25,114 nt of DNA from a virus. Below the pieces are notes generated by a model. The model did no database searches, had not been told where the DNA came from, and saw nothing but the letters and a program-made list of their open reading frames with translations. This document shows, in pieces, positions 1,203-16,538 of the stretch. Each line of letters begins with the position of its first letter. Position 1 is the stretch's first letter. The DNA is taken from positions 1 to 25,114 of the IMG/VR virus record IMGVR_UViG_3300009170_000029; one strand, 5' to 3'. The position numbers were made by a program, and so were the translations under genes.

Positions 1203-2530
1203 TTCAGTGCCTCCAGTGCAATATCCGATATGGTCCGTTTGTTATGTAGTCCGGCCCATATCTTTTCATCGACGGTCTTGTTGGTTAGCATGACGTAACA
1301 CCACACATCATGCCGTTGGCCGCTTCGATGTAGTCTCCCTACCGTTTGTTCGTACAGTTCCAGCGACCAAGGCAACGAAAGAAATACCATGTTGCAGCCG
1401 CCATGCTGGAGATTAAGACCATGACCGGCAGACTTTGGATGGACAAGCAGTAGCTCAACACGTCCAGCATTCCAGCGTTCGATTGCGTTGGGATCTTCGA
1501 GGGTGACTGCATGTGGGTATCTCCGTTTCAGTTCTGCCAACTCTTCTTGGTACGTGTAGGCGATGATGGTATTCGCCCGTTGGTTTTCTTCTAACAAATC
1601 GTCCAGCGCATCAAACTTGTGCGCGCTGAATCGCACCGGGATCTGCGTTACAATGAACTTGCCCGGCTTATCGGGATGGGGTTTCTTTGTCGTCTCATAG
1701 ACAAACCCCGACGCCATCTGCTGTAATTTGCCCGCAGCGACCCCCGCGTTTACCGCCGTAATACCTTCAAACACGAAGTCTTTCTTCATCTTGTTGTACG
1801 GCGTCATTTCCATGTCGCAACGCACTTCAACGGCATGCAACGGCGGCAGCGTGTCCTTGTATTCGCCCGGCTCCAGCAGGTACGTCGCCGGCTTGATCTT
1901 CTGCATGACCCGATCAAGCGAGCCAGGACGCGGCGCCCACTCGCCGTAGTCGGCATTAATCAGCACAAAGTACGTCTGCATGAACGCGCCCTTGCTGCGC
2001 CCAAGCAGGTTCTGGTCAATGATCTTGCACTGGCCGAACACGTCCTCAAGCCCGTTACTGGTAAAGCTGCCAGTCAAACCCCAACGCACACGCATGGGTT
2101 CAATGACTTTCAGCAGCGCCTTGTAACGTGCGCCTGACGGATTCTTGAGGCGCGTCAGTTCATCAAACACAACGCCGTCAAAGTCCAGCTTTTGATTCGC
2201 CAGCCATAACAAATTGTCATAGTTGGTGACGACCACACTTGCGCCGCTGTTCAGCGCAGTCAGCCGCTGTTCAGGCGTGCCGACCGCCACGGCCATAGTG
2301 ATGTATGGCGACCAGATAAGACGCTCTACAGGCCATACGTCGGTGCAGACACGCTTAGGTGCCAACACCAAGAATCGTTTGACTACGCCGTCGCTAATCG
2401 CGTCTTGCATGGCTGTCAGCGTGGTTGCTGTCTTACCCGCACCGACTGGCGCGAGAATCATTGCGCGGTCGTGCTCGTAAATAAAATCAGCCGCTTCGTT
2501 TTGATACGACCTAAGTGTTGGCCCACTCAT
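1199..2530 (-). CDS. SNF2-type DEAD-like helicase/ATPase, 443 aa
   Basis: Superfamily 2 ATPase that probably translocates on or remodels DNA during phage replication or recombination. Visible motifs, counted from ATG 2530: RSYQ near residue 7; Walker A PVGAGKT at 28-34; motif II D123-E124-L-T, a DELT variant of DEAH; motif III GLTGSFTSNG at 151-160; and late in the protein motif V (AGHGLNLQ) and motif VI (QTVGRLHRSGQ), the SNF2-like arginine-finger region. A start at 2560 is possible. 2530 is chosen for its AAGGA SD and smaller overlap with the VRR-NUC gene. Single-protein phage SNF2 helicases of about 450 aa commonly sit beside VRR-NUC, as here. Confidence 0.92.
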   Translation of the reverse strand: MSGPTLRSYQNEAADFIYEHDRAMILAPVGAGKTATTLTAMQDAISDGVVKRFLVLAPKRVCTDVWPVERLIWSPYITMAVAVGTPEQRLTALNSGASVVVTNYDNLLWLANQKLDFDGVVFDELTRLKNPSGARYKALLKVIEPMRVRWGLTGSFTSNGLEDVFGQCKIIDQNLLGRSKGAFMQTYFVLINADYGEWAPRPGSLDRVMQKIKPATYLLEPGEYKDTLPPLHAVEVRCDMEMTPYNKMKKDFVFEGITAVNAGVAAGKLQQMASGFVYETTKKPHPDKPGKFIVTQIPVRFSAHKFDALDDLLEENQRANTIIAYTYQEELAELKRRYPHAVTLEDPNAIERWNAGRVELLLVHPKSAGHGLNLQHGGCNMVFLSLPWSLELYEQTVGRLHRSGQRHDVWCYVMLTNKTVDEKIWAGLHNKRTISDIALEALK

Positions 2531-2780
2531 CAATCTGTTCCTTAGTCCAGAGGCACGCATAGTTTTGACCTAAGCTGCGCATGTCTCGTGCGTACAATTT
2601 TTGGAGTTCTGACAAGCGCCCGCCTTTGGTTTTAAGTTCAACAAACCAAGTTTGGCCGTTCGGCAGACACGCAATCCGGTCAGCGACGCCGCGATGGGAT
2701 GGGCTTTTAAACTTGTATGTCAGCCCGCCTTGCATCTCGACTACCCAGACAAAGTAACTTTCTATCTCGTGTTCTTTCAT
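2511..2780 (-). CDS. VRR-NUC domain nuclease, 89 aa
   Basis: Minimal PD-(D/E)XK nuclease of the VRR-NUC family, likely acting on branched or flapped DNA intermediates. Signature residues: SPSHRGVADRI with catalytic D34, then TWFVELK with E48 and K50, followed by GRLSELQ, the Q being typical of the family. The whole chain is one domain, the usual length for phage versions. It is the first gene of the leftward operon and overlaps the SNF2 helicase by 20 nt, a pairing repeated in many phages. ATG 2780 is the only start before an in-frame stop and has no convincing SD. The predicted promoter would start RNA at about this ATG, so the mRNA may be leaderless. Confidence 0.92.
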   Translation of the reverse strand: MKEHEIESYFVWVVEMQGGLTYKFKSPSHRGVADRIACLPNGQTWFVELKTKGGRLSELQKLYARDMRSLGQNYACLWTKEQIDEWANT

Positions 2781-2786
2781 GGACTC

Positions 2787-2814
2787 ACTCTAGCATGAAA
2801 AATTAGGTTGTCAA
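2787..2814 (-). promoter_or_regulatory. Leftward sigma70-like promoter for the VRR-NUC operon
   Basis: Read leftward: a perfect -35 TTGACA (2814-2809), a 16-bp spacer and -10 TAGAGT (2792-2787). RNA would start about 7 nt beyond the -10, at or beside ATG 2780. The -35 overlaps that of the rightward promoter by five bases on the opposite strand. Confidence 0.6.
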
Positions 2815-2835
2815 AAACTTTTTTTCAATTATTAT
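2808..2835 (+). promoter_or_regulatory. Rightward sigma70-like promoter for the replication operon
   Basis: -35 TTGTCA (2808-2813), 16-bp spacer, -10 TATTAT (2830-2835); each hexamer matches consensus at five of six positions. RNA would start near 2842, giving a leader of about 20 nt with the strong SD CGGAGGAAA before ATG 2861. Confidence 0.6.
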
Positions 2836-2860
2836 TCAGCCTGAAACGGAGGAAACACAA

Positions 2861-3985
2861 ATGCAACACAGTAAAGTAGTCGGCGGTAGCACCGCCAAGC
2901 GAGTGATGGCGTGCCCCGGTAGCGTGGCGTTGGTCAATAAGATGCCGCCGCAACTGTCTAGCAAGTACGCAGATGAAGGCACGCTGTTGCACAACGTAAT
3001 CGCCGACATATTGGACAAATCGCTGCCGGTGGATTCGTTCCTAGGCATGAAGTATCAAGACATTGAACTTACCCAGGAACTGATAGATGACAAGTTACTA
3101 CCGGCGCTCGCGGCTCTCGACGAAATCGACCCGACGAAACAAATGGAATTCGCTGTCGAAACCCGAGTGGGTTTTGGTGATTTTTTACCTGACGTTTTTG
3201 GCTCTACTGACCTATTGGGTCGCATTGGAACTAAGGCTCTGGTAATTGACTGGAAGTTTGGCGACGGCGTGCTGGTGACAGCGGAAGAGAATCCACAACT
3301 GCTGTTCTACGCTGCCGCTGCGATGCGCACCCCTGAAGTGCAGTGGGTGTTTAAGGGTGCAACAGAAATCGAGTGCGTGATTGTCCAGCCGACCAAAGGC
3401 GTTAGCCGCTGGGTGACTACGCCGGAGCGCATCAAGGCGTTCGAACATGAGCTGGCGATGGCGGTACGCGAAGCACAGAAACCTGACGCCAACCTGAGCG
3501 CGGGCGACCACTGCCGCTGGTGTGCCGCAAAACCCATTTGCCCCAAAATGACGGGCGCAGTTGATCGCGCGCTTAAGACGTCGCTGCAAGACCTGGACGC
3601 AGCGCAGATCAGCGCCTATCTTAAAAATGCCGATGTACTAGAGGGGTGGATTACAGATCTCCGCGCGCTGGCGTTTCAGATGCTGGAGAAGGGGATCAAA
3701 CTGCCTGAGCATAAGCTGGTTGCCAAGCGTGCCGTCCGGCGTTGGACGGATGAAGATGCTGCGCGCGCTGCACTGTCGGAACACCTGTTGGAAGAGTACA
3801 TTTATGACCGCGTTCTGATCTCACCCGCCAAGGCAGAAAAGATGTTAAAAAATCTTGGACAACCGTTGCCGGATTGTGTAGCATCAACTTCGTCGGGTAG
3901 CACTCTCGCTCATGTGAGTGATGCCCGGCCTGAAGTGTTGCAAATCGGACAGCAATTGACTGCTGCCCTCTCTAAACTGATCTAA
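2861..3985 (+). CDS. DUF2800-type RecB-like Fe-S nuclease, 374 aa
   Basis: Predicted PD-(D/E)XK exonuclease of the DUF2800 group, related in layout to Cas4 and AddB. In order: an N-terminal cysteine in MACPGS (C18); an ADEGTLLHN segment with H44; an acidic residue in GSTDLLG (D117); the core motif VIDWKFG with D130 and K132; a helix containing the Q of NPQLLFY; and near residue 218 a C-x2-C-x5-C group (C218, C221, C227). C18 plus these three cysteines is the arrangement that holds a 4Fe-4S cluster in that nuclease clan. The C-terminal third is helical without known motifs. First gene of the rightward replication operon, with strong SD GGAGG. Likely role: resection or processing of DNA ends (inference from family). 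Confidence 0.88.
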   Translation: MQHSKVVGGSTAKRVMACPGSVALVNKMPPQLSSKYADEGTLLHNVIADILDKSLPVDSFLGMKYQDIELTQELIDDKLLPALAALDEIDPTKQMEFAVETRVGFGDFLPDVFGSTDLLGRIGTKALVIDWKFGDGVLVTAEENPQLLFYAAAAMRTPEVQWVFKGATEIECVIVQPTKGVSRWVTTPERIKAFEHELAMAVREAQKPDANLSAGDHCRWCAAKPICPKMTGAVDRALKTSLQDLDAAQISAYLKNADVLEGWITDLRALAFQMLEKGIKLPEHKLVAKRAVRRWTDEDAARAALSEHLLEEYIYDRVLISPAKAEKMLKNLGQPLPDCVASTSSGSTLAHVSDARPEVLQIGQQLTAALSKLI

Positions 3986-4781: not shown

Positions 4782-4857
4782 GCTGGCGTAGCTCAGTTGG
4801 TAGAGCAACCGCCTTGTAAGCGGTAGGTCGTCAGTTCGAATCCGACCGTCAGCACCA
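4782..4857 (+). tRNA. tRNA-Thr, anticodon TGT
   Basis: Complete 76-nt cloverleaf with encoded CCA. The acceptor GCTGGCG pairs with CGTCAGC (one G-T). D-arm GCTC/GAGC. Anticodon stem ACCGC/GCGGT with loop CTTGTAA, giving anticodon TGT, which reads ACA threonine codons. T-loop TTCGAAT. The T-stem GTCAG/CCGAC has one A-C mismatch. It lies inside the rightward operon between two protein genes and is probably released from the operon transcript by host RNases. Confidence 0.95.
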
Positions 4858-6931: not shown

Positions 6932-7315
6932 ATGGAAATTTGGACTTCAATTCCCGGCTATGAGGGTTTTTACGAAGTAAGTAATTTTGGAAATGTTCGG
7001 TCGCTTACGCGGTCTGTGCCTTATGGCCGTCACCAAGGCATGACGTATAAGGGCAAAGACATTAAACAGTTTGTTTCCAATACTTATTTAAGCGTCAAAC
7101 TTTCGCGTGCCGGTGTCACAAAAACAACTTACACGCATGAATTAGTGTTGTTAGCGTTTGAAGGATATCGTCCGTCGATGGATGAGCGTTGTGAAATTCG
7201 ACATTTGGATGGCAACAAATTCAACAACGCTCTAAGTAATCTTAAATACGGAACGATTAGCGAAAATGCCGCAGACAGAAAGTTACACAATAAGGGGTTG
7301 ATTGCAGTTAAATAA
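6932..7315 (+). CDS. NUMOD4/HNH homing endonuclease, 127 aa
   Basis: Free-standing homing endonuclease. The N-terminal NUMOD4 motif (MEIWTSIPGYEGFYEVSNFG) is followed by a DNA-contact stretch and an HNH nuclease core: THELVLLAFEGY, then CEIRHLDGNKFNN, with conserved H, D and N residues, and LSNLKYGTISEN. It begins 2 nt after the polymerase stop, between polymerase and primase, with little SD. It is visibly more AT-rich than its neighbours, which is usual for mobile HNH genes. It probably cuts a homologous site in phages lacking it (family knowledge). No intron or split gene is associated. Confidence 0.9.
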   Translation: MEIWTSIPGYEGFYEVSNFGNVRSLTRSVPYGRHQGMTYKGKDIKQFVSNTYLSVKLSRAGVTKTTYTHELVLLAFEGYRPSMDERCEIRHLDGNKFNNALSNLKYGTISENAADRKLHNKGLIAVK

Positions 7316-7318
7316 AAA

Positions 7319-7343
7319 TCCCCCTAGTAGTGAGCTAGGGGGA
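7319..7343 (-). terminator. Hairpin with T-tract only for leftward transcription
   Basis: TCCCCCTAG (7319-7327) pairs perfectly with CTAGGGGGA (7335-7343) around a 7-nt loop. Read leftward the hairpin is followed by TTTTTATTT, the form of an intrinsic terminator. Read rightward it is followed by ACGAATTT with no T-run. Genes on both sides run rightward, so it may stop antisense RNA or mark the edge of the HNH insertion. Confidence 0.5.
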
Positions 7344-7367
7344 CGAATTTCCTTGGGAGGAAATGAA

Positions 7368-9659
7368 ATGCAATTTCTTGATTTTATCACGTCTCTGGCG
7401 GGTGAAGGTGAAACCGCTTTGATTGTCAAGCAGAAGCCAAATAAAAACGGTGAAAAACACGCCGATGGCGCAGTGAAATGCAGTTGGCCCGCTTACTTGC
7501 CTTCCGCATGGAAGCCGGGACACGCTTGGTACGGCAACACCGGGGCGTTTGTCGTGTCTCGTTTTAAGGATGGCAAACCGTCTGCGTCTGCGGCTAACGC
7601 TGATTTCGTGATCGTTATGGTGCTGGATGATGTAGGCACGAAATCCGAAGTACCGCCGCTAGAACCGACTTGGAAGATGGAAACTTCACCGGGTAACTTC
7701 CAGTGGGGTTACGTGTTCAGCGAACAACCAACAGCGGGCGAGTTCAGCGCCGCGATCAAGGCAATTGCTGATGCCGGATACACCGACAAGGGCGCAATCA
7801 ATCCTGTGCGCAACTTCCGCCTGCCCGGGTCAATCAATCTCAAGCCGGGGCGGGAAGGGTTTGAGTCCAAACTAGTAGAGTTTGCGCCCGAGCGTGAATA
7901 CACCCTTGAGCAGATCTGCGAAGCCCTTCAGGTGGTGCCCGCCGAGGCTGACACCGCCCGCGTGCGCCGTGTGGCGCTTGAGGATGATGGCAAAGACGTG
8001 GTGCTGGCGTGGGTACGTGCGCAGGGGCAGTTGATTTCCGAACGTAACCCTGAAGGTTGGTCGGGCGTGGTCTGTCCGAATGCCGCCGAACATACAGACG
8101 GCAACCCCGAAGGCCGTTACCATGCGGTTAATCGCGCTTACGTGTGCCTGCACGCGCATTGCTGCGATTGGGACAGTACTCGGTATCTCGCGTGGGTGGC
8201 CGCCGAAGGTGGCCCTACTTGCGCGCCGGGCTTGCGCGAGGAGCTGCTTGCCCAGGTGATGGGCGACATGCGCGCCAAGATCGCCCCGACCGAAGCATAT
8301 CCAGACGCCGCCGCCGCAGTGGTGGCCGAAGTGGATCGCAAAGAACTGGGGCGGATCGATAAGGCGGGCTGGTATGACCGTTTCGCGTACGTGATGACCG
8401 AGGATGCCTACTTTGACCTGATCGAGCGCCGAGTGTTAACGCGTCGTGCCTTTGACGCCCTTTATCGTCACGTGTCCTGTAAGAGCATTCACACAGGCGG
8501 CAAAATCGAGGCCAGTGGCTGTTACGACCAGAACCGCCAGGCGATGGGTGCGCGGGTGTTGGATGGTCTGACCTACGCCGCCGGCGAGTCGATCCTGGTG
8601 GCACGTGAGGGTCGGGTGTATGGTAACCGTTGGCAAGATGCCCGCCCCGGTACGGCTGTTGCCGACGTCTCCCCGTGGCTCGCGCACCTGCACCGCATGG
8701 TCCCCGAGGATTATGAGCGCGAACACCTGCTCAACGTGCTGGCGCATAAGGTGCAACACGCCAACATCAAGATCAACCACGCAGTGCTGTTCGGCGGCAA
8801 TCCCGGTTCGGGGAAGGATACGCTTTTCGCGCCGTTCTTTCGTGCCATTGGCGGTTCCGCCCTGCACAATTGTTCGCTGGTACGCACCGAGGAAATCGCC
8901 TCCCAATGGGGTTATGCGCTCGAATGCGAAGTAATGCAGATATCGGAGTTGCGCCAAGCGGAAGCGAAAGACAGACGCGCGTTGGAAAACCAGCTTAAGC
9001 CTATCATCGCTGCCCCGCCCGAGTATCTAACTATCCAGCGCAAAGGCTTGCCCCCATACGACGCGGTTAATCGCGTGTTCGTGGTCGCGTTTTCTAATGA
9101 GCGTGCTGCCATCACGATACCTAGTGACGATCGCCGGTGGTTTTGTTTGTGGTCGGACGCGGGGCGTCTTGCTGAGCGTGAGGCTAGTGCGCTGTGGTCG
9201 TGGTATCAGTCAGGTGGGTTTGAGGCCGTGGCGGGCTTCCTGGCCGCCCGTGACGTGAGTAAGTGGAACCCTGCCGCGCCCCCACCTATGACCGAGGCGA
9301 AAGCGATCATGGTGCAGACTGGCAGATCGGGTGTTGAGTCGCATTTGGTGGAATTGATGGAACGGCGCTTAGGTGAGTTTGCGAAGGGCGTGGTGGGTGC
9401 GCCGTGGCACGCGCTGGCGGATAGGTTATCAGGTAGCGTTGCCAGCGGGGTGAGGGTGCATCAAGCAGCTATATTCGCAGCTTTAAAAGATGCGGGTTGG
9501 GTCGATATGGGGCGCCTTACATCAACCGAATTCAAGACGAAGAAACACGTTTTCGCTGCGCCTGAGATGCTTGCTTTGCATAGCAAGTCAGACTTGCGGC
9601 GCATGGTGGAGGACGCGCCTCCGGGTGTAGTGGGCGGGGCGCTTAGGCAGGTGAAGTAG
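7368..9659 (+). CDS. Primase-helicase (AEP/RepB-like primase plus SF3-type helicase), 763 aa
   Basis: Two-domain replication protein. The N-terminal half has the archaeo-eukaryotic-primase-like pattern seen in phage RepB-like primases: VIVMVLDDVGTK with D87-D88, METSPGNFQWGY, and VRNFRLPGSINLKPG at about 147-161. A Cys/His group (CPNAAEH, CLHAHCCDW) may bind zinc. The C-terminal half has Walker A GGNPGSGKD (476-484), a QISEL segment, and an SDDRRWF stretch typical of the DUF5906/SF3 helicase family. It would unwind DNA and prime synthesis for the polymerase upstream. The frame opens at 7302, but ATG 7368 with GGGAGG 7 nt upstream is the likely start. Last gene of the rightward replication operon. 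Confidence 0.9.
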   Translation: MQFLDFITSLAGEGETALIVKQKPNKNGEKHADGAVKCSWPAYLPSAWKPGHAWYGNTGAFVVSRFKDGKPSASAANADFVIVMVLDDVGTKSEVPPLEPTWKMETSPGNFQWGYVFSEQPTAGEFSAAIKAIADAGYTDKGAINPVRNFRLPGSINLKPGREGFESKLVEFAPEREYTLEQICEALQVVPAEADTARVRRVALEDDGKDVVLAWVRAQGQLISERNPEGWSGVVCPNAAEHTDGNPEGRYHAVNRAYVCLHAHCCDWDSTRYLAWVAAEGGPTCAPGLREELLAQVMGDMRAKIAPTEAYPDAAAAVVAEVDRKELGRIDKAGWYDRFAYVMTEDAYFDLIERRVLTRRAFDALYRHVSCKSIHTGGKIEASGCYDQNRQAMGARVLDGLTYAAGESILVAREGRVYGNRWQDARPGTAVADVSPWLAHLHRMVPEDYEREHLLNVLAHKVQHANIKINHAVLFGGNPGSGKDTLFAPFFRAIGGSALHNCSLVRTEEIASQWGYALECEVMQISELRQAEAKDRRALENQLKPIIAAPPEYLTIQRKGLPPYDAVNRVFVVAFSNERAAITIPSDDRRWFCLWSDAGRLAEREASALWSWYQSGGFEAVAGFLAARDVSKWNPAAPPPMTEAKAIMVQTGRSGVESHLVELMERRLGEFAKGVVGAPWHALADRLSGSVASGVRVHQAAIFAALKDAGWVDMGRLTSTEFKTKKHVFAAPEMLALHSKSDLRRMVEDAPPGVVGGALRQVK

Positions 9660-9668
9660 AGCAATAAC

Positions 9669-9695
9669 AAACGGCCCCAATTAGGGGCCGTTTTT
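9669..9695 (+). terminator. Intrinsic terminator after the replication operon
   Basis: AAACGGCCCC (9669-9678), loop AATTA, GGGGCCGTTT (9684-9693), followed by a T-run to 9695. A perfect 10-bp stem. Leftward the T-tract is weaker (GTTTGTTATT), so it may work in both directions between converging operons. Confidence 0.9.
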
Positions 9696-9763
9696 CATAT
9701 GTCGAGAAGATAAACGATAAGCGCAGCCACTATGACGGCGAGTAGCACTGTAACGCCTCCCAT
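9695..9763 (-). CDS. Membrane micropeptide, 17-22 aa
   Basis: Tiny frame: MGGVTVLLAVIVAALIVYLL then DI, a single transmembrane segment and almost nothing else. ATG 9763 gives 22 aa. GTG 9748 gives 17 aa and has an excellent GGGAGG SD exactly 7 nt upstream, so that start may be the one used. It overlaps the end of the 79-aa gene in another frame, and its stop touches the terminator T-run. Most persuasive are the SD and the hydrophobicity. Length alone makes it uncertain. Confidence 0.45.
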   Translation of the reverse strand: MGGVTVLLAVIVAALIVYLLDI

Positions 9764-9969
9764 TCAATGTCGTCGATCATTGATTGCGTGAGCAGCGGCA
9801 AGATGTCCGTATCCTGAACCTTAGCCTCTAGCAGTTCCATAGTGGCCGGGTAGTCCGGCTCTAAGGGTAACCCACCCATACCGCGCTCGCGTGCGCCTGT
9901 AACGGCTGGTGAGTACTCCAGCAGGCAATCCAACAGGATTCCGTCATATTCGTAGGTGTGGCGAATCAC
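9730..9969 (-). CDS. Hypothetical acidic protein, 79 aa, GTG start
   Basis: Unrecognised small acidic protein (MIRHTYEYDGILLDCLLEYS, later PATMELLEAKVQDTDILPLL). Soluble and probably mostly helical. GTG 9969 overlaps the stop of the upstream gene as GTGA, so it is likely translated by coupling. It is near the end of the leftward small-gene cassette. No function can be assigned. Confidence 0.65.
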   Translation of the reverse strand: MIRHTYEYDGILLDCLLEYSPAVTGARERGMGGLPLEPDYPATMELLEAKVQDTDILPLLTQSMIDDIEWEALQCYSPS

Positions 9970-10220
9970 TTTGCGCCTCCTGTAGCCTTAGCGATTGCAG
10001 CGCGGGCTTGCCGTACCACCACAAGCGCCTCGGGGTAGCAAGTAACGCCCGCATCTTTCATCGCCTGAGCATACGCGTCGGTCATTTTTACCAATTCCGC
10101 CAACAACTCGGGCGCGGCTTCAAGCAGGGCGGCGGCTTGTTTGCATTCTTCTTGCGTAAATGCGCCGCCGCCGATAAATGCGCCGTCATTCCGGGCCGCG
10201 TGTTTAAGGTTATCAATCAT
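9966..10220 (-). CDS. Small phage protein, Ala-rich helical, 84 aa
   Basis: Contains the motif LLEAAPELLAELVKMTDAYA and an Ala/Arg-rich end (VVVRQARAAIAKATGG), a pattern I recall from many small phage proteins of unknown function. The predicted structure is two helices with a linker carrying a Tyr-Pro. ATG 10220 has GGGGAG 8 nt upstream and overlaps the stop of the 36-aa gene as ATGA. Function unknown. Confidence 0.7.
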   Translation of the reverse strand: MIDNLKHAARNDGAFIGGGAFTQEECKQAAALLEAAPELLAELVKMTDAYAQAMKDAGVTCYPEALVVVRQARAAIAKATGGAK

Positions 10221-10327
10221 TTAAAAAACTCCCCTGTGTTAAGTAGATGATATGGCCCGATCGTGCCCACAACGTAAGCGGCGCCGGTAAGCGTGAGGTG
10301 GTGAGCGTGAGCGCGAGTTATTTGCAT
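10217..10327 (-). CDS. Possible small protein, 36 aa
   Basis: Short frame starting MQITRAHAHHLTLTGAAYVV and ending LLNTGEFFK. His-rich start and a weakly hydrophobic middle, not clearly a membrane segment. ATG 10327 overlaps the end of the upstream gene by 10 nt, and its stop overlaps ATG 10220 as ATGA. A moderate SD (GGGG, 9 nt away) is present. Without it there would be a 97-nt gap in an otherwise gapless gene chain, which supports it. No family recognised. Confidence 0.45.
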   Translation of the reverse strand: MQITRAHAHHLTLTGAAYVVGTIGPYHLLNTGEFFK

Positions 10328-10455
10328 GACCAGTGCCCCATAGCTGTTAGGCGGTACTTGCCCCGCCAGTAAATAACGCGGCCGGCTCTCAGGTGCGCCG
10401 CGATGGTTGCGCGTGTGGCGTACCAGACTGCGCCTTCCTCAAGTGCGTGCAGCAT
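10318..10455 (-). CDS. Small basic protein, 45 aa
   Basis: Begins MLHALEEGAVWYATRATIAA and ends in a basic beta-like stretch (GRVIYWRGKYRLTAMGHWSC). The frame is open further to ATG 10536, but the added N-terminus is an artefact-like Arg/Leu repeat overlapping the membrane peptide. ATG 10455 has a GGGGG SD 7-10 nt upstream and is preferred; ATG 10491 is a second choice. Function unknown. Confidence 0.55.
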   Translation of the reverse strand: MLHALEEGAVWYATRATIAAHLRAGRVIYWRGKYRLTAMGHWSCK

Positions 10456-10466
10456 ATCTGCGCCCC

Positions 10467-10565
10467 CTAGATGAATTGAACGGCTAACCATGCCATGAGC
10501 ACGGCCCATGCGAAGGCGAAGGCGTAATCGCGCCATGTGGTGCGTTGTTCGCGTTCAATTTTCAT
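10467..10565 (-). CDS. Membrane micropeptide, 32 aa
   Basis: Charged head MKIERE-QRTTWRD followed by a single hydrophobic segment YAFAFAWAVLMAWLAVQFI that reaches the C-terminus. The positive/negative head followed by a membrane span suggests an inner-membrane peptide. ATG 10565 overlaps the stop of the upstream gene as ATGA, typical of coupled phage genes. No homology can be claimed at this length. Confidence 0.6.
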   Translation of the reverse strand: MKIEREQRTTWRDYAFAFAWAVLMAWLAVQFI

Positions 10566-10789
10566 TTGTGTAAGCTCACGGATAGGATTTTGTATCCCTC
10601 GCGGGTGAGGTTATCAATCTCAACCTGCCCCCGCCATGCTTCGCATTCGGTAGAACCTGAAGCGTTATCCACTTCCCAGCGGATGCTGATAAGGTCAGAG
10701 GGTGAGCGAATGATCCCGCCAACGTGCAGCATGCCATTCACGGGGGCGATCTTGGTGACGTCGCTACCTTCAATCGGTACTTGTTTCAT
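10562..10789 (-). CDS. Hypothetical protein, 75 aa
   Basis: Begins MKQVPIEGSDVTKIAPVNGM and is beta-strand-rich throughout (GGIIRSPSDLISIRWEVD, REGYKILSVSLHK). The frame could start at TTG 10795, which overlaps the upstream stop. ATG 10789 has AGGGG 7-8 nt upstream and is preferred. It contains one Cys and a WRG motif but no recognised domain. Lies between the 82-aa gene and a membrane micropeptide in the leftward cassette. Confidence 0.65.
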   Translation of the reverse strand: MKQVPIEGSDVTKIAPVNGMLHVGGIIRSPSDLISIRWEVDNASGSTECEAWRGQVEIDNLTREGYKILSVSLHK

Positions 10790-10791
10790 GG

Positions 10792-11040
10792 TCAACCCCT
10801 GCTCAGTGCGTTGTCGAAAACAAAAACGTATGAGTGATCGGGCAACTGCCCACCCAAAAGAGCGTCGTGATCCGACCAGCCTAACTTCGCCGCCAGCGCT
10901 TCCGCTGCCTTACGGTGGCAGGCCTGCCCGCTTAGTTCGTGCGGGTAATCGATAGTTAGCGAGCCAGCCGCACAAGTCGCCTTGATGCGCGAGCCTTTGG
11001 TGTTGGTGGGGCCAAAGTACTTCGTTTGAATTGCTTGCAT
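10792..11040 (-). CDS. Conserved small phage protein, 82 aa
   Basis: The N-terminus MQAIQTKYFGPTNTKGSRIK is characteristic: the YFGPTNTKGSRIKA motif recurs in unannotated proteins of many proteobacterial phages (recollection). A Gly/Asp segment and a hydrophobic C-terminal strand (HSYVFVFDNALS) follow. SD AGGAG lies 10 nt before ATG 11040. Probably an early protein, judging from its place near the promoter end of the cassette. Biochemical role unknown. Confidence 0.75.
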   Translation of the reverse strand: MQAIQTKYFGPTNTKGSRIKATCAAGSLTIDYPHELSGQACHRKAAEALAAKLGWSDHDALLGGQLPDHSYVFVFDNALSRG

Positions 11041-11074
11041 GATTTAACGCTCCTGTGGTCTGGGGGGATAAGCG

Positions 11075-11090
11075 CGCGCCTTTCGGCGCG
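11075..11090 (-). other. GNRA-loop hairpin in leftward leader
   Basis: Read leftward: CGCGCC GAAA GGCGCG, a perfect 6-bp G+C stem with a GAAA tetraloop, between the first micropeptide and the 82-aa gene. No T-run follows, so it may affect mRNA stability or attenuation rather than terminate. Confidence 0.5.
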
Positions 11091-11099
11091 GGGTGTTGA

Positions 11100-11198
11100 T
11101 TAGAAGTAGAGGAAAGCCATCACAACAACAGAAACACCGGCGAAGGCGACGGAAGCAACAACAGCTGAAATCGCGATCTGTTCAAGTTTGTTAGTCAT
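11100..11198 (-). CDS. Membrane micropeptide, 32 aa
   Basis: Sequence starts MTNKLEQIAISAVVASVAFA and continues GVSVVVMAFLYF: a short polar head, then about 24 hydrophobic residues to the C-terminus, so one transmembrane helix. ATG 11198 has only a weak upstream ACGAG as SD. It is the first gene after the leftward promoter (11232-11260) and would be the most strongly transcribed of the cassette. Similar in size and layout to the peptide at 10467-10565 but not obviously related in sequence. Confidence 0.55.
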   Translation of the reverse strand: MTNKLEQIAISAVVASVAFAGVSVVVMAFLYF

Positions 11199-11231
11199 TT
11201 TGTTTTTCTCGTTTCGTTAGTTGATGTAGCT

Positions 11232-11260
11232 AGTGTAAGACCTTTCCGTACATCATGCAA
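11232..11260 (-). promoter_or_regulatory. Leftward sigma70-like promoter of the small-gene cassette
   Basis: Read leftward: -35 TTGCAT (11260-11255), a 17-bp spacer, -10 TACACT (11237-11232). RNA would start near 11225, about 27 nt before the first micropeptide. It lies at the edge of the repeat region; the nearest CACAT motif is about 37 bp upstream of it. Confidence 0.6.
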
Positions 11261-11474
11261 GGGATATTTGAACAAATTCTTCTCATAGTGCTCATTTGAC
11301 ACATCAAAAGAGGTGGCAAATATTGCACATGTGGGGGATGTGTCGTGATGAGTTGCGCATGAGTCGCGATTTTGGGGGTGACGGCACATGGCTAAGTATC
11401 TGAAATTTAACGGTTTCTGGCCCTTATGTGTCAAATGTGTTCTTTTAGTTAGTTAGTCAGAAAAATAATAGAAG

Positions 11475-11494
11475 TACTGTATATATATACAGTA
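11475..11494. promoter_or_regulatory. Perfect LexA (SOS) box
   Basis: The 20-bp palindrome TACTG(TA)5CAGTA is identical to the published E. coli LexA consensus and keeps the CTGT-N8-ACAG core used in beta- and gammaproteobacteria. Immediately to the right is an extended -10-like TGTTATATA (11499-11507). To the left, on the other strand, is TATTAT. LexA bound here would cover either promoter. Confidence 0.75.
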
Positions 11495-11498
11495 GTAG

Positions 11499-11507
11499 TG
11501 TTATATA
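11499..11507 (+). promoter_or_regulatory. Possible extended -10 promoter beside the LexA box
   Basis: TG-T-TATATA begins 5 bp after the palindrome, with no clear -35 because that position is inside the box. A transcript would start near 11514 and run rightward through a region without genes towards terminase. Confidence 0.35.
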
Positions 11508-11937
11508 GCTGGACCGACGACGAAAAGTGACACATTTGACACATCGGGGCGTATTTGGCCGCGTAATCAATTAGTTACGATGTGCCGAACGGTGACACAT
11601 GAGTGACGTATGCAATGACACATCGCCCGCGCACCCACCAACCCCCGCGCATTTAGCCCTCCCCATGTGCCTTATGTGTCTTTTGTTTGCATGGCACATA
11701 TGACACATAGACCTTGCGCCCTAGCGCGACTGCAAACCGACCGCGCAAACGGCACATTGGCACATGTGCATTCTCAGTCATGCAAACAAATGGCACATCT
11801 TGCACATCAGCCGTTAGCCGCCAGCCGCCAGCGCACGCCGTCAGCTCGATGCAGTTTGCAGGCTGCGCAATTGTGCATTGTGCAAACAGGCCCCCGGGTA
11901 GGGCCGGCGCAGGTCGTGGTCAGTTATGGGAGGGGCC

Positions 11938-11969
11938 ACAAAAATTTTGATGTTAGATTGAAAACCGTA
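11938..11969 (+). repeat. 32-bp AT-rich repeat, copy 1
   Basis: ACAAAAATTTTGATGTTA followed by GATTGAAAACCGTA. Matches copy 2 (11984-12015) at 29 of 32 positions; start-to-start distance 46 bp. It contains an A5T4 tract and a -35-like TTGAAA (11958-11963) that pairs with TACACA (11981-11986) at 17-bp spacing. Confidence 0.75.
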
Positions 11970-11983
11970 AAACTTACTGTTAC

Positions 11984-12015
11984 ACAAAAATTTTGATGTT
12001 AAATTGACAACTGTA
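11984..12015 (+). repeat. 32-bp AT-rich repeat, copy 2
   Basis: Second copy, with perfect -35 TTGACA (12004-12009), 17-bp spacer and -10 TACAAA (12027-12032). A third, shorter copy (ACAAAAATTTTGAT, 12028-12041) follows 44 bp downstream, so A5T4 tracts recur about every 45 bp. Confidence 0.75.
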
Positions 12016-12027
12016 CGGCTATCCTTT

Positions 12028-12041
12028 ACAAAAATTTTGAT
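12028..12041 (+). repeat. AT-rich repeat, short copy 3
   Basis: ACAAAAATTTTGAT, identical to the first 14 bases of copies 1 and 2, then diverging. A -10-like TACAAT follows at 12063-12068, but spacing from TTGATA (12037) is 20 bp, too long for a standard promoter. Confidence 0.65.
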
Positions 12042-12069
12042 AAAAGTTATATGGCAATCCCTTACAATC

Positions 12070-12098
12070 TTCACAAGACCCGCGAAAACTGCTATAGA
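12070..12098 (+). promoter_or_regulatory. Candidate promoter directly before the terminase genes
   Basis: -35 TTCACA (12070-12075), 17-bp spacer, -10 TATAGA (12093-12098). The predicted start falls on ATG 12105, which has no SD, so this transcript would be leaderless. Confidence 0.45.
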
Positions 12099-12104
12099 AA
12101 ACGT

Positions 12105-12500
12105 ATGATGCTATCTATTCCAAATTCGACGCGACAACTGCGCGCAACCGAACAGCGATTGCAGGCGATCTATGACGCTGCCGCACTAGGACTCAAAGGC
12201 GACGCATTGGCCCTGGCTGCTGGCATGCTGCCTACTGAATACCGGCAGTTGTGCCAGATGGATCCGATTGCGGAAACAGCCGCGCTAAAGGGCAAAGCCG
12301 ACGCTGAAGTGCGATTGGCTAAGGTGATGCACAACGCAGCAATGGAGGGCGACACTAAAGCGGCGCTGGCGATCCTTCAGAACCGCCACGATTGGACACC
12401 CAAGCAAGAGATCAACGTGGATGTGCATACGCGCATCTCGATCACGCAAGCGCTTCAAGCCGCGCATGAGCGCGTCATTGAAGGTGAGGTTGTACGGTAA
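12105..12500 (+). CDS. Terminase small subunit, 131 aa
   Basis: Probable DNA-recognition subunit of the packaging motor. The N-terminal region (YDAAALGLKGDALALAAGML, then PTEYRQL) reads as a helix-turn-helix of the kind found in small terminases. The middle contains an AEVRLAKVMHNAAMEGDTKA helix and the end a short beta/helix tail used for oligomer contacts (family knowledge). Its stop overlaps the TerL start as TAATG. The frame opens at 12051, but that region carries promoter-like sequence; ATG 12105 (or 12108) gives a normal length. No SD is seen at either. Confidence 0.85.
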   Translation: MMLSIPNSTRQLRATEQRLQAIYDAAALGLKGDALALAAGMLPTEYRQLCQMDPIAETAALKGKADAEVRLAKVMHNAAMEGDTKAALAILQNRHDWTPKQEINVDVHTRISITQALQAAHERVIEGEVVR

Positions 12501-14023
12501 TGCAAAAGCCCCTGTATTCGTCTGACGAAGAAATGATGCTGATGACGCGGCTCTGGTCGCCGAAGGTCAAAGACGACCCGGAAGCGTTTGTGCTGTTCTG
12601 CTTTCCGTGGGGGCAGCCGAACACGCCTTTGGCTAAGTTCAGCGGCCCGCGCAAGTGGCAACGGGAGGTCTTAAGATCCATCGGCGATCACATCAAGGCG
12701 AACGACGGCAAGTTGCAGATGGACACCCTGCGGCAGGCGGTCTCTTCAGGGCGCGGTATCGGTAAGTCAGCGTTAGTCAGTTGGTTGATCCTGTGGATGA
12801 TGACGACGCGCATCGGCGCGACGGTTATCGTCAGCGCCAACAGTGAGGCGCAGCTCCGCAGCGTCACTTGGGGGGAGCTGTCCAAGTGGGCGGCGATGGC
12901 GATCAACGCGCACTGGTGGGAGATCTCGGCGACCAAGCTGCTGCCCGCGCAATGGATCACCGAACTGGTCGAGCGCGATCTGAAGAAGGGCGCACGCTAC
13001 TGGGCGGCGGAGGGCAAGCTGTGGTCGGAAGAGAACCCGGACAGCTACGCCGGGGTGCATAACCACGACGGCATGATGTTGATCTTCGACGAGGCTTCCG
13101 GCATACCGGACGCAATCTGGTCGGTGGGCGCGGGGTTCTTCACCGAGAACATTCTGGATCGGTACTGGTTCGCGTTTAGTAACCCGCGACGCAACACGGG
13201 GTACTTCTTTGAATGCTTCAACTCGAAACGTAACTTCTGGAAGACGCGCAATATTGATGCACGTACGGTAGAAGGTACGGACATACAAGTGTATGAGCAG
13301 ATCATCGCGGAGTATGGCGAGGATTCCAGCCAAGCGCGGATTGAAGTGTATGGCGAGTTCCCCAGCGCGGGTGAGGATCAGTTTATCTCGCCGGTACTGG
13401 TTGATGAGGCGCAAGCGCGGCCACGGTATCAGGACACCAGCGCGCCGATTATCGTAGGGGTGGACCCGGCGCGCAGCGGCGCGGACTCAACGGTGATACT
13501 GGCGCGGCAGGGACGGGACATTATCTCGATCAAACGCTATCAGGGTGAGGACACCATGACGATTGTGGGTCGGGTAATCGAGGCGATTGAGGAATTCCGA
13601 CCTGCGCTGACGGTGATCGACGAAGGTGGGCTGGGTTACGGCATTCTGGATCGTCTGACTGAGCAACGGTATAAGGTCAGAGGCGTCAATTTCGGCTGGA
13701 AGTCGTCCAAACCTATTATGTGGGGCAATCGGCGGGCGGAAATGTGGGGTGCGATGCGCGAATGGCTGAGAACTGCTAGTATTCCCACGGATCGGCAGTT
13801 AAAATCAGACCTTATTGGCCCCACCAAGAAGCCTGATTCCAAAGGGACTATCTTTTTGGAAGGCAAAAAGGAGATGAAAGCCCGAGGGCTGGCTTCTCCT
13901 GATGCGGCAGATGCGTTGGCGGTGACGTTTGCTTTCCCGGTGGCGCATAAAGAGTATGCGGATAAGAATACACCGCGTACTTATCAAGGTAACAGCGTTA
14001 TCAATTCATGGATGGGCGCTTAA
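12500..14023 (+). CDS. Terminase large subunit, 507 aa
   Basis: ATP-driven packaging motor and headful or site-specific nuclease. ATPase domain: Walker A GRGIGKS (84-90), adenine-contact WQREV upstream, Walker B MMLIFDEAS with D197-E198. RNase-H-like nuclease domain: VGVDPARSGADST (D322), TVIDEGGLGYG (D374), SPDAADALAVTF (D468, D471), the expected set of metal-binding acids. Length is normal. The start overlaps the TerS stop (TAATG), and its own stop overlaps the portal start in the same way, so the three are translationally coupled. Confidence 0.96.
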   Translation: MQKPLYSSDEEMMLMTRLWSPKVKDDPEAFVLFCFPWGQPNTPLAKFSGPRKWQREVLRSIGDHIKANDGKLQMDTLRQAVSSGRGIGKSALVSWLILWMMTTRIGATVIVSANSEAQLRSVTWGELSKWAAMAINAHWWEISATKLLPAQWITELVERDLKKGARYWAAEGKLWSEENPDSYAGVHNHDGMMLIFDEASGIPDAIWSVGAGFFTENILDRYWFAFSNPRRNTGYFFECFNSKRNFWKTRNIDARTVEGTDIQVYEQIIAEYGEDSSQARIEVYGEFPSAGEDQFISPVLVDEAQARPRYQDTSAPIIVGVDPARSGADSTVILARQGRDIISIKRYQGEDTMTIVGRVIEAIEEFRPALTVIDEGGLGYGILDRLTEQRYKVRGVNFGWKSSKPIMWGNRRAEMWGAMREWLRTASIPTDRQLKSDLIGPTKKPDSKGTIFLEGKKEMKARGLASPDAADALAVTFAFPVAHKEYADKNTPRTYQGNSVINSWMGA

Positions 14024-16179
14024 TGGCGAAGCAAGACAAAGAACTGCTCTCAACTGCCCGATCCAGGCTCAATCTGGCGATTTCGGCGTATTCCGAAAGC
14101 CGCGAAGATGAACTGGACGATCTGCGGTTCTTCGCAGGCTCGCCGGATAACCACTGGCAGTGGCCTGCGGACGTTCTAGCGACCCGTGGTGCGGTTCAAG
14201 GGCAGACGATCAACGCACGCCCTTGCCTCACCATCAACAAGCTGCCACAGCACGTTAAACAGGTTACGAATGACCAGCGCCAGAACCGCCCTGCGGGAAA
14301 AGTCATTCCTGCTGACGACAAAGCCGACATTGAAGTCGCTGAAATCTTCGACGGCATCGTCCGGCACATTGAGTACATCTCCGACGCCGATGTTGCTTAT
14401 GACACCGCGTGCGAGAATCAAGTTGCGTATGGCGAAGGCTACATCCGTATCCTGACGGAATACTGCGACGAGAACACGTTTGACCAAGACATTAAGATCG
14501 GGCGCGTGCGAAACAGTTTCTCGGTCTATATGGACCCAATGATTCAAGACCCCTGCGGCGCGGACGCCAAGTGGTGTTTTATCACCGAGGACATTACCAA
14601 AGAAGATTACGAGCGCATGTTCCCGGATGCTTCGCCGGTGACAACGCTGCAACAGATGGGCGTGGGCGATCAGTCGATCAACCAGTGGCTGAACGAGAAC
14701 ACCATTCGGATTGCCGAATACTTCTACATTGATCACGAACCTGCCACGCTGAACATGTACCGCGACGGCATGACCGCCTTTGAAGGTACGCCTGAAGATA
14801 AGCAGATGAAGGCGATGGGCATGAAGCCTATCAAGACTCGCCGTGTGGATCGCCAGAAGGTCAAATGGTGCAAGATCAACGGCTACGAAGTGCTGGAAGA
14901 GCAAGAATGGGCTGGCAAGTACATCCCGGTGGTGAAGGTTGTAGGCAACGAATTTGAAGTAGATGGTCGCATCTATATGTCCGGCCTTGTGCGCAACGCC
15001 AAGGACGCGCAGCGTATGTACAACTATTGGGTGAGCCAAGAAGCCGAAATGCTGGCGCTGGCACCCAAGGCACCGTTCATTGGTTACGGCGGTCAGTTTG
15101 AAGGCTACGAACAGCAATGGAAAACGGCTAACACGCAGAATTGGCCCTATCTGGAAGTCAATCCTGACGTCACCGACGGCCAAGGCCAGACTCTGCCGCT
15201 GCCGCAGCGTGCCATGCCGCCGATGGCCCAAACAGGCTTGATTCAAGCCAAAATGGGCGCGTCTGAGGACATCAAATCGACGACTGGACAGTATGACGCC
15301 AGCCTTGGCATGATGGGCAACGAACGCTCTGGCCGGGCTATTCTGGCGCGTGAGAAGCAAGGCGATACGGGTACTTATCACTACGTCGATAATCTGGCCC
15401 GCGCCGTGCGTCATGTAACCCGTCAGATCGTGGATATGATCCCTAAGATCTACGATACGCAGCGAATTGCACGCATCATCGGCATGGACGGCACAACCGA
15501 TATGGCCTCCATTGACCCGACTCAGCAAGAGCCGGTCAAGAAGATCGTGGATGAGACCGGCGTTGTGCTAAAGAAGATCTACAACCCCGGCATCGGCAAG
15601 TACGACGTGTGCGTGACCACTGGCCCCAGCTACATGACCAAGCGTCAGGAAGCTATGGACGCCATGAGTCAGATTCTGCAAGGTAGCCCGCAACTTTGGG
15701 CTGTGGCTGGCGATCTGTTCGTCAAGAACATGGATTGGCCGGGTGCAGATGAACTTGCAGCACGTCTCAAGAAAACAATTGACCCGAAGTTGCTGGAAGA
15801 TGGCGACAAATCGCCGGAGTTGCAGGCCGCCGAACAGCAAATGCAGGCGATGGGTCAAGAACTTGATCAACTGCACCAGATGCTGCAAAACGTCAGCAAG
15901 TCGATGGAAATGCGCGACATTGAAATCAAAGAGTTTGATTCTCAGGTCAAAGCATACCAAGCCGAAACGCAACGTATCAGCGCGGTTCAAGCCAGCATGT
16001 CACCAGAGCAGATTCAGGATATTGTCATGGGCACCGTACATGGCATGATTACTTCGGGTGATTTGATGGCTGAGATGCCGGGACAAGATCTGCCGGGCGA
16101 AGAGATGCAAGATATGGGGCAACAACCTCAAGAAATGATGCCTGAGCAGGCACCGCAACCAATGGAAGGAATGCAATGA
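14023..16179 (+). CDS. Portal protein, P22 gp1-like, 718 aa
   Basis: Dodecameric ring at one capsid vertex through which DNA enters and leaves. The protein is P22-portal-like in length (P22 gp1 is 725 aa) and in sequence: an early LDDLRFFAGSPDNHWQWP segment, the TINKLPQHVKQVTNDQRQNR stretch, and a late helical region with ERSGRAI. The C-terminal 120 residues are rich in Gln and Met with long helices, which could form the barrel seen in P22 (inference). The frame opens at 14008; ATG 14023 overlaps the TerL stop and is preferred. Confidence 0.94.
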   Translation: MAKQDKELLSTARSRLNLAISAYSESREDELDDLRFFAGSPDNHWQWPADVLATRGAVQGQTINARPCLTINKLPQHVKQVTNDQRQNRPAGKVIPADDKADIEVAEIFDGIVRHIEYISDADVAYDTACENQVAYGEGYIRILTEYCDENTFDQDIKIGRVRNSFSVYMDPMIQDPCGADAKWCFITEDITKEDYERMFPDASPVTTLQQMGVGDQSINQWLNENTIRIAEYFYIDHEPATLNMYRDGMTAFEGTPEDKQMKAMGMKPIKTRRVDRQKVKWCKINGYEVLEEQEWAGKYIPVVKVVGNEFEVDGRIYMSGLVRNAKDAQRMYNYWVSQEAEMLALAPKAPFIGYGGQFEGYEQQWKTANTQNWPYLEVNPDVTDGQGQTLPLPQRAMPPMAQTGLIQAKMGASEDIKSTTGQYDASLGMMGNERSGRAILAREKQGDTGTYHYVDNLARAVRHVTRQIVDMIPKIYDTQRIARIIGMDGTTDMASIDPTQQEPVKKIVDETGVVLKKIYNPGIGKYDVCVTTGPSYMTKRQEAMDAMSQILQGSPQLWAVAGDLFVKNMDWPGADELAARLKKTIDPKLLEDGDKSPELQAAEQQMQAMGQELDQLHQMLQNVSKSMEMRDIEIKEFDSQVKAYQAETQRISAVQASMSPEQIQDIVMGTVHGMITSGDLMAEMPGQDLPGEEMQDMGQQPQEMMPEQAPQPMEGMQ

Positions 16180-16538
16180 AAGCCGCTGATTTTGTCGGTC
16201 TGCTATTCCTCGGACGCGACGTAGCCCATTCGGTGCATCTGAATACCCGCAGCTATGCCAAGCACAAGGCTTTGCAGAAGTTCTATAAAAGTATTGTTGA
16301 TTTGGCGGATAACTTTGCCGAAACGTATCAAGGCAAATACGGTCTGATTGGCGGAATTGCCCTGCAACCCGCCAAAAAGACGACTAATATCGTAGAATTC
16401 TTGCAGAACCAAATGGATGAAATTGAGTCTGTACGTTACAAGGTAGTCGATAAGGACTGCACCGCTATCCATAACATCATTGATGAAATTGTCGGGCTTT
16501 ACCTCTCGACACTATACAAACTTCGCTTCTTGGCTTGA
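16176..16538 (+). CDS. DUF5856-like ferritin-fold protein, 120 aa
   Basis: Resembles the DUF5856 family: GRDVAHSVHLNTRSYAKHKA, then LQKFYKSIVDLADNFAETYQ and a C-terminal IIDEIVGLYLSTLYKLRFL helix. The repeated His/Glu/Asp helices suggest a four-helix, Dps/ferritin-like fold, but no metal site or function is established here. ATG 16176 overlaps the portal stop as ATGA. It sits between portal and virion genes, a place where a head-associated or DNA-protecting protein would be possible (inference). Confidence 0.75.
   Translation: MKAADFVGLLFLGRDVAHSVHLNTRSYAKHKALQKFYKSIVDLADNFAETYQGKYGLIGGIALQPAKKTTNIVEFLQNQMDEIESVRYKVVDKDCTAIHNIIDEIVGLYLSTLYKLRFLA

Follow-up and report, generated by a model that had tools for sequence, protein, structure and literature searches.

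Iteron origins served by helicase-type initiators have been described in satellites and plasmids, mostly as single cases. Satellite phage P4 pairs an iteron origin with its alpha protein, a primase-helicase that carries an origin-binding winged helix at its C terminus and a primase domain of the bacterial (Toprim) type (PMC4234260). The Rep proteins of SaPIs and other PICIs are self-loading helicases whose C-terminal domain recognizes the iterons (PMC7581432), and their origins have an AT-rich region between two sets of iterons (PMC6092414). In SCCmec, the isolated C-terminal domain of Cch2 binds direct repeats downstream of its gene (PMC7581432). The putative Cch2 origin differs from the locus described here in having only three iterons (AAGTG), and we know of no lineage-specific series of repeat words described for it. 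In the PLE satellites of Vibrio cholerae, the DNA-binding domain of RepA covaries with the origin, and only cognate pairs function (PMC8263062).

Here we describe an array of short repeats that very probably serves as the replication origin in a freshwater phage. The window covers an entire virus record (25,114 bp), and because its relatives measure 36-40 kb, this contig should represent about two-thirds of the genome. We consider it highly likely that the array is the origin and that the phage's own primase-helicase (7302-9659, + strand) binds the repeats as iterons. Both origin activity and binding are inferred from sequence comparisons. A sequence-only reading of this DNA had already proposed an iteron-like origin, and that proposal is well supported by the conserved position of the array, by its covariation with the primase-helicase, and by a common core in which divergent iterons surround an AT-rich gap.

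The locus would function much as P4 alpha and SaPI Rep do; the new parts are a rule that relates the wing of the putative initiator to the repeat, and an SOS-type box. As in P4, a primase-helicase is paired with a probable iteron origin, with the winged helix here seen in predicted models only and with middling structural matches. The repeat sequence differs from that in P4. P4 also has a second iteron region, crr, and no second iteron cluster was found in the contig, which is about two-thirds of a genome. As in the SaPIs and PICIs, the protein is an SF3/D5-type helicase with a putative DNA-binding domain at its C terminus (from DUF5906, Foldseek matches to 7ola/7pds, and the winged-helix model), and two iteron sets surround an AT-rich region (core at 11426-11544). 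In contrast to those elements, the array does not lie directly 3' of the initiator gene, as small ORFs on the opposite strand occupy the roughly 1.6 kb from 9659 to 11297, and the phage is not a satellite, since it has its own terminase, portal, scaffold, coat, and connector genes. PLE RepA differs in belonging to the RepA_N initiator family and in having two allele groups, whereas we describe many words and a residue-level rule. The roughly 180 related phages that we compared provide as many natural initiator-origin pairs within one widespread uncultured group, and specificity is narrowed to a small number of loop residues, which opens a rule for how a replication initiator recognizes DNA to direct testing. 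It also becomes possible to place the origins of uncultured phages from genome sequence alone.

The repeat array and its core

The genes of the contig resemble those of a P22-like podovirus. Before the array are genes for an SNF2-type helicase, an exonuclease, a DNA polymerase, an HNH nuclease, and the primase-helicase; after it are the small and large terminase subunits, portal, tail fibre/spike, scaffold, coat, and connector proteins. The small subunit, TerS (12051-12500, + strand), itself matched no PHROG or Pfam family and was assigned from its position before TerL and the conserved gene order. TerL (12500-14023, + strand; PHROG terminase large subunit) served as an anchor for finding relatives, which were collected via TerL and via the primase. 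Elsewhere in the contig, there is a tRNA gene in the early region (4782-4854, Rfam RF00005), and 16176-16538, within the block of virion genes, matches a starvation-inducible transcriptional regulator in PHROG. The first leftward ORF beside the array encodes a hydrophobic peptide of 32 residues (MTNKLEQIAISAVVASVAFAGVSVVVMAFLYF, 11100-11198, - strand).

The array (11297-11807, both strands) is built from TGNC-ACAT words. We counted 21 copies of CACAT between 11290 and 11810 (13 on the + strand and 8 on the - strand), of which 19 fit [GT]NCACAT (13 + and 6 -), exactly the numbers of forward and reverse copies given in that reading. The motif is far above chance, as had also been claimed: in first-order Markov simulations of the window, the densest 520 bp contained at most 8 copies of CACAT (mean 4.9). 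Nor is it equally common elsewhere, with 16 of the 17 matches to GNCACAT falling within 11298-11798, in a contig that is only about two-thirds of a genome of about 38 kb. The reading had five doublets with a spacing of exactly 9 bp in both orientations; spacing and orientations hold, and the number is six (starting at 11531, 11695, and 11794 on the + strand and at 11329, 11426, and 11665 on the - strand). All six are inside the array, which also has a CACAT pair at 8 bp (11753/11761). GCAAAC, said to precede several of the motifs, precedes some sites only. Separately, TGCAAAC/GTTTGCA words are clustered at 11683-11892, beside and past the CACAT sites, and the close relative L004 has a similar cluster.

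Within the array, two doublets diverge across an AT-rich gap. The left inner doublet lies on the - strand (11426-11440; ATGTGTCAAATGTGT as read on the + strand) and the right inner doublet on the + strand (11529-11544, GACACATTTGACACAT); together they form an inverted repeat with arms of 21 nt that are 90% complementary. The gap between them (11441-11528) is 69% AT, versus 46% for the window, and is our candidate for the melting site. Across the family, divergent sites flank the AT-richest gap in 89 of 117 arrays, versus an expectation of 25% (binomial p = 7e-31), so comparison shows that this core architecture is conserved. GC skew gave no origin signal in the window or in two complete relatives.

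The AT-rich DNA that was thought to follow the array does exist, as three copies of ACAAAAATTTTGAT that precede terS at 11937-12041, beyond the array, with spacings of 46 and 44 bp, but the AT-rich stretch that appears relevant is the internal one. Similar repeats are present in L004 and in another close relative, L085. They may be accessory, with a promoter, pac, or a second melting element as candidate roles.

By analogy with P4 alpha, SaPI Rep, and Cch2 (PMC4234260, PMC7581432), we propose that the C-terminal domain would bind the iterons, that hexamers would assemble, and that the AT-rich core would melt. Each repeat would be read by the winged helix, and the divergent iterons on either side of the core would load two helicase rings in opposite orientations, with 11441-11527 melting first.

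Repeat words and the primase-helicase wing

The gene order polymerase, primase-helicase, small genes, array, TerS, TerL is common among the relatives. Both the array and its core are kept, in the same place, in L004 and L085. More distant relatives also have a dense array before terS, with other words (ATTGNCAAT, TTGCCTACAT, TTGTCCACA, TGACCCAA, TGACCGAA, and others), so what is retained among relatives is the position of the array, while the word varies by lineage. Most words begin with TGNC and vary in their 3' half. In MW202483.1, a family member from GenBank whose primase is 47% identical, eleven copies of GTTTACA lie between the terminase genes and the small genes. A search of the viral collection with the doublet pattern also returned L153, L155, L180, and L185, which we set aside by eye; their dense doublet matches are in other contexts and appear to be repetitive coding sequence.

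A second word, CACTAAC/AAGTTAG, occurs in the arrays of several lineages (for example L239, L260, and L270), whatever the wing. We considered it as an iteron class read by the primase and dropped it because it recurs in lineages that differ in their wings. Arrays of TGACACAT or TGGCACAT occur in otherwise unrelated phages (L191, 783-1200; L214, 1918-2200), and the one in L191 is 3' of a primase-helicase-like gene (1504-3510, - strand). In phage DSL-LC05 (L227, OR003940.1), an array of TGACCCA adjoins terS (33312-33915), and the annotated primase/polymerase is of another type.

The sequence-only reading had seen no obvious initiator nearby and had named no binding protein. We propose the primase-helicase, a DUF5906 (SF3-type) protein of 785 residues (PHROG DNA primase; Pfam PF19263) whose gene ends 1.6 kb from the array. 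A Pfam scan of its N-terminal part gave no match. AlphaFold models predict a C-terminal domain at residues 664-772 (9291-9617, + strand) with the element order H-S-H-H-S-loop-S, which is that of a winged helix; pLDDT was 87 when residues 440-785 were modelled and 84 when only the domain was. With the helicase and the C-terminal part together, the best Foldseek match was the C-terminal region of the primase-polymerase of phage NrS-1 (6k9c, E = 4e-16, 17% identity), and the SaPI5 primase-helicase (7ola/7pds) matched at about 1e-7. The domain alone gave middling Z scores against many winged helices, and we therefore use the label as a statement of topology and not of family or specific relative. 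The wing of this predicted domain, which tracks the repeat word, is our candidate for the specificity element (GRLTSTEFKTKKH, residues 737-749; 9510-9548, + strand). We had considered these residues as a recognition helix and dropped this because the model places them in the wing loop.

Evidence for the wing comes from a sliding-window scan that preceded any definition of word classes. For each stretch of 12 primase residues, sequence identity was compared with the similarity of the arrays, taken from unsupervised 6-mer profiles, and identity over residues 1-600 was controlled for. Of 377 windows, the best was residues 735-746 (DMGRLTSTEFKT), with a partial rho of 0.276 (all windows: mean 0.006, standard deviation 0.085), and none of 2,000 permutations matched this peak. 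When arrays were sorted into word classes, columns 742, 740, and 745 ranked first to third among 896 columns of primase and TerS; the classes were picked with the words already sorted by wing, a bias that only the scan and the frozen rule described below escape. Among loci with R742, those with K740 had CACA words in 21 of 21 cases, while those with other residues at 740 had CACA in 7 and TACA in 10 (Fisher p = 4e-5). A740 together with A, S, or T742 goes with AAT, and G742 goes with C[CGT]AA. T740 with T742 goes with the ACAT of the window, a class that is based on three close relatives.

We wrote down a prediction rule before fetching new loci, and then applied it to a held-out set of 45 nonredundant loci, which are relatives below 95% identity and not independent lineages. 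The rule was correct for 34 of 42 predictions, as compared to 20 if CACA were always predicted and to a mean of 13.9 and a maximum of 23 when permuted (0 of 5,000 permutations did as well). Among held-out loci with a clear array, 30 of 34 were predicted correctly. Five of the eight failures were predictions of AAT, every one at a locus with V739, and four of these loci have TGNCC[CGT]AA words, which suggests that residue 739 matters too.

Contrasts between close relatives point to the same residues. Among all columns, 740, 745, 739, and 742 ranked first to fourth across 39 disjoint pairs of close relatives whose words differ, and column 740 differs in 85% of pairs with different words but in only 12-17% of pairs with the same word. 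In leave-one-out prediction of the word, the 13-residue wing was correct for 86% of loci, versus 74% for primase residues 20-640, 71% for residues 750-785, 60% for TerS, and a mean of 53% over 188 windows of 13 residues. L254 and L289 have identical wings and different top words. Comparison across the family shows that the loop of the putative initiator and the repeat word change together, and the covariation is close enough that each can be predicted from the other. We propose that the TGNC half, which is constant in the main lineages, would be the invariant part of the site and that the 3' half would be read by wing residues 739, 740, 742, and 745.

Rival readings of the array

The array lies directly upstream of terS throughout the family, so it might instead serve packaging, as a pac or cosB-like site to which the product of the adjacent gene binds. 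Indeed, a stretch of TerS (PTEYRQLCQMDP) tracked the word in our first correlation, with the primase controlled (partial rho = 0.289). However, the best TerS column ranks only 49th among primase and TerS columns in the close-pair contrasts, ten pairs of phages whose TerS proteins are at least 95% identical carry different words, and TerS predicts the word class less well than the wing does. The close-pair contrasts and the pairs with nearly identical TerS led us to drop TerS as the binder, and we regard a packaging site as very unlikely. It is also very unlikely that the repeats are operators at which a phage repressor or activator controls divergent promoters on either side, even though the array separates leftward small genes from the rightward terS operon and has a LexA-type box within it, and even though the initiator could additionally repress its own region. 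The repeat word follows the wing of the primase; the phrog_3199 protein, which is encoded next to the array, is present in few relatives; and no S24-type repressor was found in 10 near-full-length relatives.

Covariation could also arise if the 3' end of the primase gene and the array were exchanged together by recombination, with no contact between protein and repeat. Only the block of small genes lies between them, and synonymous divergence between two relatives (L010 and L014) grows in the 3' direction along the primase gene, so exchange of linked DNA does contribute. Linkage alone would favour residues 750-785, which are nearer the array than the wing is, and TerS, which is nearer on the other side; yet residues 750-785 perform worse than the wing, both in leave-one-out prediction and in the contrasts (mean z of 0.82 versus 2.16), and TerS predicts worse still. 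The signal is also concentrated on a few residues of one loop. We therefore disfavour linkage alone and consider it very unlikely to be the explanation. Centromeres, too, can hold arrays of short repeats in both orientations, as in the partition sites of phage-plasmids; this reading is extremely unlikely here, as no partition protein was recognized among the scanned proteins of the window and the covariation indicates the primase-helicase.

The SOS-type box

Within the AT-rich gap is a perfect LexA/SOS-type palindrome (TACTGTATATATATACAGTA, 11475-11494) that fits the SOS consensus, CTGT-N8-ACAG, with zero mismatches; none of 100 shuffles matched it. Defining a strict box as CTGT, eight mostly A/T positions, and ACAG, we found 30 in 184 arrays versus 1 in the 1.83 Mb outside the arrays of the same loci. 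If up to 5 mismatches are allowed, 48 of the 184 arrays have a box, as compared to 1 of 184 control pieces. In all 36 of these box-bearing arrays that have at least 6 sites, the box-like sequence sits between iterons, and in 29 of these the nearest sites are divergent.

LexA may bind the box, and it may control melting or a promoter. More speculatively, LexA might gate the origin: it is possible, if on balance doubtful, that this segment of the core doubles as an operator for the host's LexA, which would block opening of the origin until DNA is damaged and might also act on a leftward promoter. If so, the SOS state of the host would gate the replication of a phage with no recognizable integrase or S24 repressor. 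The 10 near-full-length relatives showed neither of the two, a result that does not settle their lifestyle. We found nothing directly relevant in the open-access literature on LexA boxes in phage origins. The strict box is found in many lineages, with differing iteron words, and its recurrence in the core raises the question of whether replication of these phages is tied to DNA damage in the host. As a weak hint to the host, MAG contigs that contain relatives are labelled as Rhodoferax and other betaproteobacteria.
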